From: a virus
DNA length: 64,000 nucleotides
Virus record (IMG/VR): IMGVR_UViG_3300017963_000197
Span: 1-64,000 of that record
Reading direction: 5' to 3' (one strand)
Shown here one piece after another: positions 33,283 to 61,149 of this stretch (within the stretch, counting starts at the first letter, position 1; each line of letters starts with the position of its first letter). The position numbers and the translations under genes are program-made. The notes under the pieces were generated by a model. The model was given only the letters and a program-made list of their open reading frames with translations. It ran no database searches and was not told where the DNA came from.

Positions 33283-33429
33283 TCAGTCCGCTCGAACCAA
33301 TGTGTAGGCGGTCCGGGACTCGTCAAGTTCCCGCTTATAGGTCTCTTCTAACTCCTTCTCGGCCGCTTCCATCGCCGCGAGTGCGTCACTCTCAGCCTCT
33401 ATTATAGGGAGCGGCTCCTTCTCACACAC
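33283..33429 (-). CDS. Small acidic helical peptide (48 aa)
   Basis: A 48-codon frame starting at GTG (33429) and overlapping the end of the sigma-like gene by 8 bases, ending TGA at 33283. The product is one amphipathic, Glu/Ala-rich helix (EAAEKELEETYKREL). It fills most of an otherwise empty gap, and its codon usage resembles its neighbours. Plausible but unconfirmed. Confidence 0.5.
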   Translation of the reverse strand: MCEKEPLPIIEAESDALAAMEAAEKELEETYKRELDESRTAYTLVRAD

Positions 33430-34063
33430 AGCGGTCCACGCCCCTATCACTCCACTGCGGTAGGCTCACGGCCCTGAGAATATTGAAATTCTTGGATGCG
33501 ATTGAGGAGAATATCTTATGGTATGGTTGGAACTGGTCATCACCCTCGGCCGCATCCTTAAGAACCTCAACGGCCTTGAAAAACCGATGGCGGACACGTC
33601 CTTGTGTTAACTTCAACTTGGACGCCACTTCTGATTGGCACGTTGTCTGCCACATCCCCACCAAAATATTGATGTCGATTTGCTCAAAGATCTCGGCAAG
33701 ATCCTTCCGCATGTCCTCTTCCGTGACCGTAGGAATGGACAGCAAGAACTTGATGCGTTGAATCCCCCGGTCCAGCCGGTAACTGATAGCCGCCTGGGTT
33801 ACATCGAAGATTTCGGCTATGTCGGCTTGGCGTTTCTTACAGACGTAATAGAGATATATAAGATCTGCCTCGCGTTCTGGTATCCGGTCAAGAAGGGGCG
33901 CGACAATCGTTTCATAGTCATCAGTGGAGAACAACGCCTCCATCTCAGCCTCTTCTTCTTCCCTCTCTAGTCTCTCTCTTTCGTCTATAGGTGTTGGATC
34001 AGGTGCTGCAAAACGGTTAGCTAACTCAGCGGGATCGACCGGAATAACATAGCCACTTGACAT
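33422..34063 (-). CDS. Sigma-like DNA-binding regulator with two HTH motifs
   Basis: A 213-residue protein starting at an ATG with AAGGAG eight bases upstream. Residues 20-45 are strongly acidic. Residues 60-108 match sigma-70 region 4: IPEREADLIYLYYV, then the HTH QADIAEIFDVTQAAISYRL and RGIQRIKFLL. A second HTH follows at 131-170 (CQSEVASKLKLTQGRVRHRFFKAV). No region 2 is seen, so it is not a full sigma factor; it could be a promoter-specificity or late-gene activator working with host RNA polymerase. It lies at the border between replication and head modules. Confidence 0.75.
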   Translation of the reverse strand: MSSGYVIPVDPAELANRFAAPDPTPIDERERLEREEEEAEMEALFSTDDYETIVAPLLDRIPEREADLIYLYYVCKKRQADIAEIFDVTQAAISYRLDRGIQRIKFLLSIPTVTEEDMRKDLAEIFEQIDINILVGMWQTTCQSEVASKLKLTQGRVRHRFFKAVEVLKDAAEGDDQFQPYHKIFSSIASKNFNILRAVSLPQWSDRGVDRCV

Positions 34064-34112: not shown

Positions 34113-35897
34113 CTAAGGTTGTTTTGGGAAGAACGCAGCTAGAATAGACTTAGGCTTTACCTCAATACCCTCTAGCTCGGCTTCTGCCCTACTCTGATCT
34201 GGATTCGATTCGATCTGTCTGAATGGTACGTCTTTCAGAGCTAACAAGTCAATGTTTTTAATAACCCGATCCTCGTTAGCACGCAATTTGGAAACCTGAC
34301 TTTTTCCTAACCCGGCCAAATTAGATCCTAACAGGGCCTCGACTGAACCATACAGTTTGATGAGTTTGGAGGCTGTCTTAGGACCAAAGCCGGGGACTCC
34401 GGGTATATTATCTGAGGTGTCTCCGCTCAACGCCCGTAGGTGGATCATACTCTCCGGAGCCACTCCATACTCCCTCTTGACGAGCGCCGGGTTGTATAAC
34501 CTTTCCTTACCCATCCCCACCTTTGGGCACAACTGGTGAGTGAACTCCGATACCAACTGTAACAGATCCCTGTCCGTGGAAATCAGCACGTTTGGGCGGC
34601 CTTCGAGCGGCCCTCTCACCAGGGCGGCCATAACATCGTCAGCCTCTTCGTCTGGATTAAACGCCTGAATGACGCCGAATGACGGCAAATTATCTCGAAG
34701 CCAATCCATCTCGAAGGTGTTGGCCGCTGCCCCGGACCGCGAAATCCGGTTGGCCTTGTAGTCAGGGAACATAGCCTTCCGCCGTTGCGACGAACCATCC
34801 CAACACACGAAAACCCGCGCCTTCGGGAATCTCTTTTTGTAGGAGCCAAGGCTTCTTAGAAACCCAACGATGGCACCGGTCGGTCGGCCCTGAGAGTCCG
34901 TGAGGTCGCTCAAGCCGGGAGCGGAAAGACATCGAATGTATAATTGGGTGCCGTCCACGACCAAATTCATAGGAGTAGGTTCTGTCATTTCTCTTACGTC
35001 CGAGTATATCGTAAAGATCTTGGCGCAAGCTTCTGATAGAAACCGCACCTCCTGGTGTTTCTGAGACATGAAGCTTAGGTCCGGGAGAGGAGCGCTAACA
35101 GTATGAATCTGACTCCGTAAAGAAACCCCTGTCTGTAGGTTTCGTAGCTCCTGGAACTTGGCCCACAAGGGGTCAAAATCTATCCGGGAATGGTACGCTC
35201 TTATAAAATGGTACGTGGCCCGGCTCTTTTCGATCCAACCATCCATACGACCGAGATTCCGATGGCCTTCCCGGACCCCTTCCAACTCGGAACCGGACCA
35301 GCGGGCTAACATAAGAGCACCCCGCGCCCACTCCGTTAGCTTTTCCAACTTCGTCCGGTGGACCACGTGAGGAGGTTTTGATTTCAACCTCAAGAACGCT
35401 CTGGGTAATGTTACCAACCGATCTGTGGATCTTAATTGAATGTGGACCGTCACCGAATCGTGCTCATGAATCTCCTCCCGCACGACAGCTTCGATGTTTT
35501 TGTAAGGGCCTGAGGTTATAACTACGATGTCGTCAACCTCTATGCCCTGATCCACCTCAACCTTTATCTGCTTACGCAGTTGGTCTATCTGCTCCGGGGA
35601 GACAGTCGCCAGACGCTTGTCCTTCTTAACTCCGGTCGGAACGTATAAAGGTCCCTGGACGTATTTCGTGTCTACCAGCCGGGCGTAGTGGGTCTCCGTG
35701 TGCCTGTGTTGAACGAAGGCGTACCCGTCCACAAGGTAATGGAAAACCCTCTGCTCCCCACGTTGAACCACTGACGCCGGTACGAAAACTTCGGCGTCCC
35801 GGATATGATGACGGATCGAATTCCGTACCATATCCGGATCTTCATTTTCTGCTTTAGAGGTAAGCTCTAATACTACCCACTGGTTTTCCGTACCCAT
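34113..35897 (-). CDS. NusG-like (NGN-KOW) domain fused to 5'-3' flap exonuclease
   Basis: One uninterrupted 594-residue frame. Residues 5-90 match the NusG NGN domain (WVVLEL, VFVPASVVQRGEQRVFHYLVDGYAFVQ, including the usual PGY-like turn as DGY). Residues 117-170 are a KOW/SH3 barrel (VDDIVVITSGPYKNIEAVV). Residues 175-305 are a helical linker. Residues 310-590 are a complete T5/Taq-type 5' nuclease: D315, D367, the EEADD cluster at 417-421, D442 and D444, D493 and D496 in SGDTSDNIPG, and the helix-hairpin-helix GVPGFGPKTA. All catalytic acids are kept. This type of nuclease removes RNA primers and flaps. A weak internal start at 34988 could give a separate 291-residue nuclease. Confidence 0.9.
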   Translation of the reverse strand: MGTENQWVVLELTSKAENEDPDMVRNSIRHHIRDAEVFVPASVVQRGEQRVFHYLVDGYAFVQHRHTETHYARLVDTKYVQGPLYVPTGVKKDKRLATVSPEQIDQLRKQIKVEVDQGIEVDDIVVITSGPYKNIEAVVREEIHEHDSVTVHIQLRSTDRLVTLPRAFLRLKSKPPHVVHRTKLEKLTEWARGALMLARWSGSELEGVREGHRNLGRMDGWIEKSRATYHFIRAYHSRIDFDPLWAKFQELRNLQTGVSLRSQIHTVSAPLPDLSFMSQKHQEVRFLSEACAKIFTIYSDVREMTEPTPMNLVVDGTQLYIRCLSAPGLSDLTDSQGRPTGAIVGFLRSLGSYKKRFPKARVFVCWDGSSQRRKAMFPDYKANRISRSGAAANTFEMDWLRDNLPSFGVIQAFNPDEEADDVMAALVRGPLEGRPNVLISTDRDLLQLVSEFTHQLCPKVGMGKERLYNPALVKREYGVAPESMIHLRALSGDTSDNIPGVPGFGPKTASKLIKLYGSVEALLGSNLAGLGKSQVSKLRANEDRVIKNIDLLALKDVPFRQIESNPDQSRAEAELEGIEVKPKSILAAFFPKQP

Positions 35898-35923: not shown

Positions 35924-37330
35924 TTACTTTAGCAACGGAGACTGTATCTTTTTTCGTAAAAGGGCTTCGAATTTCCTACGCCACTCAGCCGGTGACATCA
36001 CCTTGTGTTCCCGGTTTCTCGGTGGCCGCGCTGTCATATCTGACTCTCTGCTTCGGGGCATCTCCGCGTTAACGACGTGCTTCTCGATGTCCGTTGGTAC
36101 AGTAGGGTCCGCGAACTCGTCAACAATTTGAGGAGGCGGATCTGACTTTTTAACGGTCTCGGCCTTCACTTGTTCTTGCTCTTGAGGCTTAGGCTGCTCC
36201 TGTTCTTTGGGTTTGGGTTGCTCTGGCTCTGGCCCGTTGGATTGCTTCTTACTGCCCGAGAAGACCACAGGAGGCGACGGTTTGTCTGTTGGAAGGTTGC
36301 CTGGGAGTTGAGAAAAAACGACGGCGTCTCTGACGAGACTTAACTTGGTCGTGTACTTAGAACCCAAGAACCAGTAAGCAAAGCGGACAACATCTGAGCC
36401 GTATTTGGCGTGAACCTTCTCAGCTAACCCTTTATCAACGAACGAGAAATCAGCGTAAATGCCACTGGCCACCCGGTACGTGTTCATGGCCGCTTCGGCT
36501 ATACCCGCAGACACTTCTTCCGGCGTCACCATCTCACACGCCTGATCGATTAGCTCTATGGTTTGCTTGGGATCGTCCAGATGTAACAGGATCTGGTAGT
36601 AGAGGGTAACAACAGACAAGTGGAGATAGGACCGCACGTTGTCTATCGTCACGTCGCCCAACTGCGAAATCATCTCCAGCTTGTTTATTACGTCCCGGAC
36701 ATGGCCGTCAGAATGGTCGATGACGATGTAGACAGCGTCATCCTCGAACTTGACCTCCTCCTTCTCCAGAATCATACGCATCCGTTGGAGGACCTCGTCC
36801 CTTGTGACCTTACGGATCGTGTACTCCTCGCAACGAGACCGGATCGCACCACGGATCTTTTCCGCCTCCGTGGTGCAAAACATCCCGATCATCTTCTTGT
36901 CCTCGATCGGTTTCAGGAGCACATCTTGAGCCGCCACGCTCATCCGGTGGGACTCGTCAAAGAGGTAGATACGCTTTGGGGCGTTCTCCAAAACGTAAGG
37001 CAATTCCTCTATGATTTTACGAACGTGCTCGACGGTACCGTGGCTCGCAGCATCCCGCTCCGTGAACGGCCCCGGCTGTTCTTCCAGGATCGTGGTGCAA
37101 TTATCACACTTGTTACACGGCTCAGGATCGCTGGTATCCAGGTCTTGACAAAGCATCGCCCTCGCGTGAATCCGGCTTACGGTGGTCTTACCCCGGCCGA
37201 AAGCTCCCGCGAAGATATAGCTTGTGTCGAAAGCCGTCCCGTTCTTTAGGCGAGCCTTCAGGAGACGGACGTTACCGTCTTGACCTAGGACATCAGCAAA
37301 CCGTAAAGGTCTGTAAACAGTATCCCACAA
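35924..37330 (-). CDS. dnaX: DNA polymerase III gamma/tau-like clamp loader ATPase
   Basis: The ATPase of the sliding-clamp loader. AAA+ features: RPLRFADVLGQ opening, Walker A GAFGRGKTT at 42-50, zinc module C61, C72, C75, C78, Walker B IYLFDESH at 121-128 (DESH where bacterial DnaX has DEVH), sensor 1 FCTTE near 151, and the arginine-finger motif SRC at 165-167. A collar domain follows (residues 240-330), then a Pro/Gln/Glu-rich linker with PKPKEQEQ repeats and a basic end, comparable to tau. The start is a TTG. The partners delta and delta-prime lie at 56196-58109. Confidence 0.92.
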   Translation of the reverse strand: MWDTVYRPLRFADVLGQDGNVRLLKARLKNGTAFDTSYIFAGAFGRGKTTVSRIHARAMLCQDLDTSDPEPCNKCDNCTTILEEQPGPFTERDAASHGTVEHVRKIIEELPYVLENAPKRIYLFDESHRMSVAAQDVLLKPIEDKKMIGMFCTTEAEKIRGAIRSRCEEYTIRKVTRDEVLQRMRMILEKEEVKFEDDAVYIVIDHSDGHVRDVINKLEMISQLGDVTIDNVRSYLHLSVVTLYYQILLHLDDPKQTIELIDQACEMVTPEEVSAGIAEAAMNTYRVASGIYADFSFVDKGLAEKVHAKYGSDVVRFAYWFLGSKYTTKLSLVRDAVVFSQLPGNLPTDKPSPPVVFSGSKKQSNGPEPEQPKPKEQEQPKPQEQEQVKAETVKKSDPPPQIVDEFADPTVPTDIEKHVVNAEMPRSRESDMTARPPRNREHKVMSPAEWRRKFEALLRKKIQSPLLK

Positions 37331-56195: not shown

Positions 56196-57158
56196 CTAAC
56201 GAGCTATAGACAATATTGCCAACTCGACCAGGGTTCTTTTTGATCGAGATGGGCCTTTCACATCTACATCTAATCTGCACAGCCGCCTCATGTAGTCCAC
56301 TAACGATTTAGGATCATGTTTACGCGCTATGGGTGCCGCAATGTTCTTGTACGGCCACTCCTTCATTCCCACGGTGGCCGCTATATTTGATTCTTCTACA
56401 CCTCTATCTTGAAGGTTTCGAATAACTACCGTTTTTTCTACCTGCTTCATGATCGAGCGTACGACCGGGATGAGAGCATCATCCCCTGAGTTCCTGTACA
56501 ACACCGAAAACAAGCTTAGCGCCCCCTTCAAATTCTTTGCTATTACTTGCTCGGCCACCTGGAACGGTTCGGCCTTCGGGGTCGGGCTTGTTATTAACTT
56601 TATATGCTCCTTTTTGACGCTTCCCGCCTGACCCACATAGATTGCGAGTTTCCGCAATTCGTTTTCCAACCGATATAGGTCCGGGCCAACGTATTGATAC
56701 AGTGTTGAAGCTACGTCCTTGTCGATCGCCACACGAAGACGGGTCGCCTCCGTCTTGACGAACTTCACATAGTTATCCGTCTCCCACGGCTTGAATCTAC
56801 GCCGTTCGACTTTCTTACCCTTAGAGGCAGCGAGTTCCCACACGTCCGGAAGCTTGGAACTCCGGACGACCGCCATGAGAATGAGGGATTTGTCAGAACG
56901 GTCTCGGGTGCCTACAAACGTGCGTAAAGCGTCGTTCGCCCTTATTTTCTGGGCGTTATCTAAGATTATGGTACGCGGGATCTCTGAGTAAGCCTCGCAC
57001 AGGTCAACGAGTTGAACAGGCTTTAGATCCCCGCCGTCAACACGAAGGATATCTCTCTTACCTTGACGTGCTCGTTCTATGTCACGGTCAAGATAGAAAT
57101 CCTCATCACCAAAGGCGATCACAAAGGGATTGAATGAGGATGACTTAGAGGAGGCCAT
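56196..57158 (-). CDS. holA: DNA polymerase III delta-like clamp loader subunit
   Basis: A 320-residue HolA-type wrench subunit. The N-terminus has FVIAFGDEDFYLDRDIE, like the GDEPLLLEE motif of bacterial delta. Later: RTIILDNAQKIR, then LILMAVVRSSK, FKPWETDNYVKFV, the collar helices with VGPDLYRLENELRKLAIYV and EPFQVAEQVIAKNLKGALSLF. The order matches bacterial delta along its length. It lies next to delta-prime and completes a DnaX/delta/delta-prime set. Confidence 0.85.
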   Translation of the reverse strand: MASSKSSSFNPFVIAFGDEDFYLDRDIERARQGKRDILRVDGGDLKPVQLVDLCEAYSEIPRTIILDNAQKIRANDALRTFVGTRDRSDKSLILMAVVRSSKLPDVWELAASKGKKVERRRFKPWETDNYVKFVKTEATRLRVAIDKDVASTLYQYVGPDLYRLENELRKLAIYVGQAGSVKKEHIKLITSPTPKAEPFQVAEQVIAKNLKGALSLFSVLYRNSGDDALIPVVRSIMKQVEKTVVIRNLQDRGVEESNIAATVGMKEWPYKNIAAPIARKHDPKSLVDYMRRLCRLDVDVKGPSRSKRTLVELAILSIAR

Positions 57159-57164
57159 GTCCCA

Positions 57165-58109
57165 CTAAAAGGTTTCAACAAGAGTTGTCTTGAAATGGAA
57201 GGGGAGGTTTATCCGAGTTATCCGATACCGGCTCTGTAGATCTCTCGTTTTTTTGGTTAACTCGTTCCATGTTTGTAGAGAGGCTCTCTTCCCTATCTTC
57301 TCCAGATCATCAGAACGATCCGCATGAATAACTCGGGTAGTATCTACACGGCCTACAAATATATCGTGGACGATTTGTTCCAGAAATTTCAGAGCTAGTA
57401 GCAAATCCTTGTCCATAGCATCCACGGCCGCAAACAACGTCGAAAGATCCTTGTCCAAGGCTGCCTGGAGAACAGCCACGACTTGATCTCGAAGGGCCAA
57501 TCGACCCGAACCCCAGTAGCGGAGAGCGTTGCCTACCGAACCCTCTCCCATTCGCGTATAGACAAGAGCTTTAGCGCTCGTATCGTATTGCTGAACTACC
57601 GATAAAACGAACTCTTCGGGAAGCGGAAGGTATTGTACGCGCCCGCACCTCGAACGAATTGTAGGCAACACACGATCGATATCTTCAGCGATCAAGAAAA
57701 AACGTGACCGGGCTGGCGGCTCTTCAAGAGTCTTTAAAAAAGCGTTGGCGGCCGGTCCCGTGAACCGGTCCGCCCCGTCGATGACGAAGCATCGAACCGA
57801 AGCGACCGACGGATAGCTCTTGGCCTCACTGATCAATCGACGTATGTCGTCGATACCAATGTCTTTTTCGCTGGCGTCCAGCGTGAGGATATCCGGGTGG
57901 ATGTTTTTCGTTATCTGGTAGCAAGACGAGCACGGACAGTCCGGTTCTCGATTCTCCTGGCAGAAAGCCTCTTGTGCGGCCTTGAGCACAGAAAACTTCC
58001 TACCAACCCCCGCAGGACCAACCAGCAAAATCGGTGACACCAGACGCCCTTCAACAAAGCGTCTAAGGAACTTCACCCCCTCCGTCTGGTGCTGAATCTC
58101 CTGTAGCAT
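57165..58109 (-). CDS. holB: DNA polymerase III delta-prime-like clamp loader subunit
   Basis: A 314-residue AAA+ protein. Degenerate Walker A GPAGVGRKF near 30 (Arg-Lys where GKT is expected), zinc-type Cys (CPCSSC), Walker B-like FVIDGADRFT, sensor-like EEPPARSRFFLIAE and the arginine-finger motif RSRCGRVQYLPL. It is the stator of the clamp loader; loss of ATP binding is normal for delta-prime. I chose the ATG at 58109 over a TTG at 58121. It overlaps the upstream zinc-ribbon gene by 47 bases. Confidence 0.88.
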   Translation of the reverse strand: MLQEIQHQTEGVKFLRRFVEGRLVSPILLVGPAGVGRKFSVLKAAQEAFCQENREPDCPCSSCYQITKNIHPDILTLDASEKDIGIDDIRRLISEAKSYPSVASVRCFVIDGADRFTGPAANAFLKTLEEPPARSRFFLIAEDIDRVLPTIRSRCGRVQYLPLPEEFVLSVVQQYDTSAKALVYTRMGEGSVGNALRYWGSGRLALRDQVVAVLQAALDKDLSTLFAAVDAMDKDLLLALKFLEQIVHDIFVGRVDTTRVIHADRSDDLEKIGKRASLQTWNELTKKTRDLQSRYRITRINLPFHFKTTLVETF

Positions 58110-58278
58110 TTCCTGGCCCAAGCAGATCTTTCGTACGCTCCACAGGATCTACCGGGACAAATTGGAGCACCCCATGATAATGCTGACCGCAGTCCTGGCA
58201 GATGTATCTGTGGACCTCTACACCACTGGGTGCCAGACGGCCCTCGCACTTGAGGCACTTGATGAAGTCTTCTGTCAC
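58063..58278 (-). CDS. Small zinc-ribbon protein A
   Basis: A 71-residue protein from the GTG at 58278 (GTGA overlap with the preceding stop). Two knuckles, CLKC and CQDC 20 residues apart, give a zinc ribbon, with an unstructured acidic/Gly-rich tail. Its 3' end overlaps the delta-prime gene by 47 bases. It may be a nucleic acid- or protein-binding accessory; no family named. Confidence 0.6.
   Translation of the reverse strand: MTEDFIKCLKCEGRLAPSGVEVHRYICQDCGQHYHGVLQFVPVDPVERTKDLLGPGNATGDSAPDGGGEVP

Positions 58279-59116: not shown

Positions 59117-61149
<2,033 letters not shown>

Follow-up and report, generated by a model that had tools for sequence, protein, structure and literature searches.

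The window, a stretch of 64,000 nucleotides (positions 1 to 64,000) of the 173-kb virus record IMGVR_UViG_3300017963_000197, carries a single minus-strand open reading frame in which a NusG-type module is followed by a 5' nuclease, and this gene is flanked by a DnaX-like gene upstream and a sigma-like gene downstream. The features of the locus are as follows:

35924-37330, minus strand: DnaX-like clamp-loader gene, upstream neighbour (Pfam DNA_pol3_delta2, 1e-19; phrog_5846, 2e-50)
34113-35897, minus strand: NusG-FEN fusion gene, ATG start, 594 aa, uninterrupted open frame
35604-35897, minus strand: NGN (NusG N-terminal) domain, residues 1-98, with the invariant GYAF at 58-61 (phmmer, profile, fold and alignment)
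35379-35537, minus strand: KOW beta-barrel, residues 121-173 (KOW match and a five-strand barrel in the model)
34983-35372, minus strand: helical connector, residues 176-305 (AlphaFold2 helices, pLDDT 47-90, partly low confidence)
34986-34988, minus strand: candidate internal start ATG (M304) for a free nuclease (conserved near here in the subclade; weak SD)
34116-34982, minus strand: PolI/T5-type 5' nuclease (FEN) domain, residues 306-594 (Pfam, PHROG, PDB, fold and alignment)
33422-34063, minus strand: sigma-like gene with a region-4 type HTH, downstream neighbour (Sigma70_r4, 5e-14)

The first-pass annotation had described positions 34113-35897 as one frame and had left the strand unstated; coordinates and frame were right, the strand is minus, and the 594-aa ORF has no stop. 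The protein is 100% identical in three further IMG/VR records (416, 73 and 25 kb), which makes a local assembly frameshift unlikely, and neither a frameshift nor a stop lies between the domains, confirming that NusG and FEN are joined in a single real gene.

Residues 1-173 are, by homology and predicted fold, a NusG-type NGN-KOW module, with an NGN fold and then a KOW barrel in the same order as in NusG/Spt5 (phmmer, profile, PHROG, Foldseek and model). With the single sequence as query, the Pfam matches to NusG (E = 0.011) and KOW (E = 0.016) were both under the cut-off, and the curated cut-off of PF02357 was missed (16.7 bits vs 22.2); this cut-off is set for typical NusG proteins and marks no biological feature, and homology is supported by the profile and fold searches. 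The NGN/KOW similarity that had been proposed for residues 1-170 was found by phmmer against T. maritima NusG (E = 6e-6), by a 28-member family profile searched against the PDB (NusG 2lq8, E = 6.6e-10), by PHROG 6386 (phrog_6386, transcription antiterminator; matched by 25 of the 28 members) and by Foldseek with the predicted model (best NusG fold match 6gov_G, E = 3e-9 to 4e-9); KOW was detected in 19 of the 28. The GYxF core motif at the RNAP-facing side of the NGN domain is present in the alignment, and its residues G58, Y59, A60 and F61 are the same in each of the 28 members, whether free or fused. In bacterial housekeeping NusG an aromatic KOW residue (F165 in E. coli) contacts S10 and Rho; the equivalent position here, taken from the phmmer alignment with T. 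maritima NusG, is R156, invariant among the orthologs, so that this contact feature is not kept. A role as an RNAP-bound elongation factor is well founded by homology.

The nuclease identity of residues 306-594 is, on homology, beyond doubt: they matched the Pfam families 5_3_exonuc_N (1e-24) and 5_3_exonuc (2e-18), with PF02739 and PF01367 both over their cut-offs (87.4 and 67.2 bits), phrog_107 (E = 3e-31), and Taq and Mycobacterium PolI in the PDB (E down to 4e-32). Nine catalytic-type acids (D315, D367, E418, D420, D421, D442, D444, D493 and D496) do not vary among 20 aligned orthologs, bearing out the earlier description of a complete T5/Taq-type enzyme with all catalytic acids, and a 5' nuclease function is likewise well founded by homology. 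The C-terminal stretch KSILAAFF is kept in most orthologs. Its reading as a separate PIP-box or clamp-binding motif was rejected because it folds as a helix (residues 582-589, high confidence in the AlphaFold2 model) and is similar to the last residues of the nuclease domain of PolI (in Taq, ...LEFGSLLHEFGLL).

The AlphaFold2 model (29-row alignment; mean pLDDT 84.8, pTM 0.52; N-terminal part remodelled separately) contains both the NGN-KOW part and the FEN part that the first-pass annotation expected of a structure prediction, and its low pTM makes the relative placement of the domains uninformative. Between the domains, the interdomain length varies about two-fold across orthologs (~98-203 residues). 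All three segments (NusG part, connector and nuclease) are under purifying selection, and the connector is the least constrained (dN/dS ~0.15-0.19 vs 0.03-0.09 for the other segments, from two close pairs, synonymous sites being saturated in the remaining pairs).

The proposed position between a sigma-like gene and DnaX was upheld by the Pfam and PHROG matches on both sides, and DnaX upstream and the sigma-like gene downstream recur in nearly all related loci. The cassette forms the end of a minus-strand replication block (clamp-loader delta and delta', NAD ligase, RNR, UvsX, and SbcCD-like, RuvC-like and primase-like genes), ahead of terminase and portal; promoter and terminator scans around it gave scores at shuffle level. 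No match to the RNAP subunits beta and beta' was found (PF00562 in 20 records and PF00623 in 12, records that may be incomplete), and host RNAP should therefore be the target of both the NusG and the sigma-like protein; a phage RNAP of very divergent sequence may remain beyond these two models. PolA was present in 8 of the 10 records searched and is devoid of a 5' nuclease domain, and PF02739 had no more than one match in a record, always to the fusion or to the cassette FEN, so that this FEN probably serves the phage as its replicative 5' nuclease. Records with NusG only gave no PF02739 match, and these phages presumably borrow a host 5' nuclease.

Several other features of these genomes were recorded. 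A clamp loader (DnaX, delta and delta') is encoded in the window (35924-37330 and 56196-58121), yet a beta- or PCNA-type clamp went unrecognised in the whole records (PF00705, no match; PF02768, only a structural-looking protein, E = 0.07), and the phage would either rely on the clamp of its host or have one of its own that has diverged too far. A GroEL-like chaperonin gene (59117-60772; phrog_5725, 6e-136) lies near the replication block. The DnaX genes of two related loci (L021:5233-7971 and L009:3161-5044) contain inteins, with LAGLIDADG/intein-splicing Pfam matches, and those of L036 and L037 are inferred to do so from gene length and split alignment. A TnpB/Cas12f-like gene (PF07282; L021:9970-11376) is inserted between fusion gene and sigma-like gene; two tandem sigma-like ORFs follow the free NusG gene in L115, L117 and L119 (4152-5603), and an additional partial sigma-like stretch lies downstream in L030 and L031. 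In LR745208.1 (W01), the PolA frame at 285077-288784 (1763 aa) has its polymerase domain in three pieces, as if split by two inteins.

Relatives, gathered with profiles of the NusG part and of the downstream sigma-like protein, are jumbo-phage contigs of up to 529 kb. The sigma-like profile had 203 relatives, of which the best 80 were kept. Home-made profiles classified at least 57 loci as fused (at least 49 distinct fused proteins), at least 18 as having NusG and FEN on separate ORFs, at least 6 as NusG only and one as cut by a contig end; further NusG-only loci came from the NusG-part profile set. The search for the same architecture in other phages that had been suggested was thus positive, and the fusion is a clade-wide trait of jumbo phages, not a peculiarity of the window phage. 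In annotated phages, no tblastn record covered 80% of the fusion protein, and the NusG part matched LR745208 alone, as a free gene. One match among genome contigs, considered as a bacterial copy, was rejected as an ordinary Treponema PolI with a chance peptide. The architecture had been called unusual, and indeed no NusG-nuclease fusion was found in the PDB, BFVD, annotated phages or the open-licence literature.

On a tree of the sigma-like proteins (76 rows, quick method, midpoint root), the three states fused, separate and NusG only require four changes, with the NusG-only loci forming one side of a branch. In a distant clade (L116-L134) NusG and FEN are two genes that keep this position and order, overlapping by 4 nt (ATGA/GTGA) in L122, L123, L127, L131 and L134. 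Neighbouring genes of one operon, coupled in translation, are thus the most likely source of the fusion. Within the fused clade, 46 of 48 sigma-distinct members (from the best 80 of 203) are fused and two are split, L074 (= L031) and L100, each known from one assembly; L031 shows the same 4-nt overlap of its NusG and FEN genes, and trees of NusG, of sigma and of the nuclease all give good support to its pairing with L030. The simplest and most likely history would be a fusion of coupled neighbours followed by two fissions; as the root of the tree is unproven, we infer the direction of change. The two split members and the consistently separate genes of the distant clade indicate that covalent linkage is dispensable.

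A weak internal start at 34988 had been suggested to give a free nuclease. The ATG (M304) exists, and every member of the window's subclade has an ATG 6-9 codons ahead of an N-x-x-x-D-G anchor, but anti-SD pairing there is no better than about the 5% level; the annotated N-terminal starts of this subclade are equally weak in SD. The site is strong in sister lineages: in divergent fused phages, ATG, GTG or TTG stands exactly three codons ahead of the conserved N-x-x-x-D-G in 27 of 34 distinct nuclease junctions (~7% expected per codon), related rows not being independent and the count being conservative (L025 belongs to the window's subclade, and the anchors of L101 and L113 are mis-set). The residue at -3 varies (M, V, L) while the codon remains a start codon, and the best anti-SD pairing upstream of it averages -5.5 kcal/mol vs -3.2 kcal/mol over all positions after the NusG domain, below every one of 20,000 random means. 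A start codon at one exact position with an SD above background suggests that these lineages probably also make the free nuclease; its production is likely there and possible in the window phage.

The different ways of accounting for the fusion are not equally probable. That gene calling or assembly merged two genes has practically no chance of being right: nothing at the window was found to support it, and it is refuted by the identical ORF in three other records and by the at least 49 distinct fused proteins from independent assemblies. It is improbable, too, that the NGN-KOW part no longer binds RNAP and has become a nucleic-acid or clamp-loader adaptor steering the nuclease in the replisome near DnaX. 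Such an adaptor would fit with the adjacency of DnaX in all clades, the low single-sequence similarity to NusG and the lack of the S10/Rho contact residues, but none of the 28 free and fused members departs from GYAF, which aligns with the side of NusG that faces RNAP, a sigma-like gene adjoins, and a free form of NusG occurs with no nuclease at all.

A far stronger contender, to which we give somewhat less than an even chance, is that the fusion is a convenience of co-expression, in which NusG antiterminates host RNAP, the nuclease serves replication, and the link sets only stoichiometry or timing, with no RNAP-coupled cleavage. Relatives with separate or split genes, a third clade with NusG but no FEN, the variable and fast-evolving connector and the conserved internal start that would release the nuclease all agree with it; however, a neutral fusion should break more often than the two times counted in the fused clade, which has 48 sigma-distinct members, given the saturated synonymous divergence.

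The explanation that we favour, with about an even chance of being correct as a whole, begins with an in-frame fusion of operon neighbours, a phage-encoded NusG paralogue and the one PolI-type 5' nuclease that the phage has, in a conserved DnaX - NusG - FEN - sigma cassette, from which two products would probably be made. In the full-length protein, the NGN domain would dock on the clamp of transcribing host RNAP, the NusG part would keep the polymerase processive through long phage operons, and the helical arm would carry the nuclease on RNAP, where it could cut RNA/DNA 5' ends (primers, flaps, R-loop edges) at sites where transcription meets replication; the free nuclease would remove Okazaki primers for the phage's own NAD ligase and PolA, the latter having no 5' nuclease domain. 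Consistent with this explanation are the domain and fold matches, the invariant GYAF and catalytic acids, at least 49 fused proteins in one cassette, a sigma tree on which the fusion arises once and is later split twice, the ATGA/GTGA-coupled separate genes, the 27 of 34 NTG codons at -3 with their SD, the absence of an RNAP match, the presence of PolA with PF02739 confined to the fusion, and NAD ligase, delta and delta' in the window. The splits and the separate clade, the variable, fast-evolving connector, the weak SD in the window and the lack of the F165-type contact speak against it. The domains, the active site, their conservation, the cassette, the evolutionary series and, in the sister lineages, the codon-level mark of the internal start are established; RNAP binding, antitermination, a free product in the window phage and RNAP-coupled cleavage are predictions. 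Joint action of NusG and nuclease on RNAP appears plausible, though unproven: long retention of the fusion and the conserved neighbourhood support it, and the splits and the internal start weaken it. Taken as a functional claim, that an elongation factor with a flap nuclease on host RNAP cuts primers, flaps or R-loop ends at transcription-replication encounters, with free nuclease for Okazaki maturation, is put forward tentatively, at well short of even chances.

Like NusG, RfaH and LoaP (NusG/Spt5; PHROG 6386), the phage protein has the NGN and KOW order and fold and the GYxF core motif, but it adds a C-terminal helical arm and a nuclease, its KOW domain is without the FGR-type S10/Rho contact, and it is phage-encoded beside DnaX and a sigma-like gene. 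It shares the full active site and two-domain fold, at ~30% identity, with PolI/T5-type 5' nucleases (Taq and E. coli PolI N-domain, T5 D15, Mycobacterium FEN, ExoIX), which are fused to a polymerase or stand alone, whereas here the nuclease lies behind NusG. The NusG proteins of T. maritima and A. aeolicus have also gained an extra domain; unlike the phage nuclease, these inserts are non-enzymes located elsewhere in the protein. Phage T4 likewise combines host-RNAP factors (gp55, gp33), a clamp loader and a flap nuclease (RNase H) in its late-transcription/replication set, but has no fusion, and in the window phages a PCNA- or beta-type clamp was not identified with the PF00705 and PF02768 models. 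A jumbo-phage survey treats flap nucleases as enzymes that remove primers, and sigma factors as recruiting host RNAP, and does not contain the terms NusG and KOW (PMC7824862); a review of NusG diversity covers added domains, the T. maritima insert among them, and does not contain the term nuclease (PMC7819879).

The fusion is thus a real and widespread domain architecture, apparently not described before, made from two known families. No NusG/Spt5 form carrying a replication nuclease was found in the open-licence literature or the structure libraries searched. NusG/Spt5 is, to our knowledge, the only universally conserved transcription elongation factor, and the fusion points to a possible direct physical tie between transcription and replication. 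The natural series of NusG alone, coupled NusG and FEN, fused and re-split genes provides matched natural controls, with which one can test whether it matters that transcription is physically linked to the processing of primers or R-loops.
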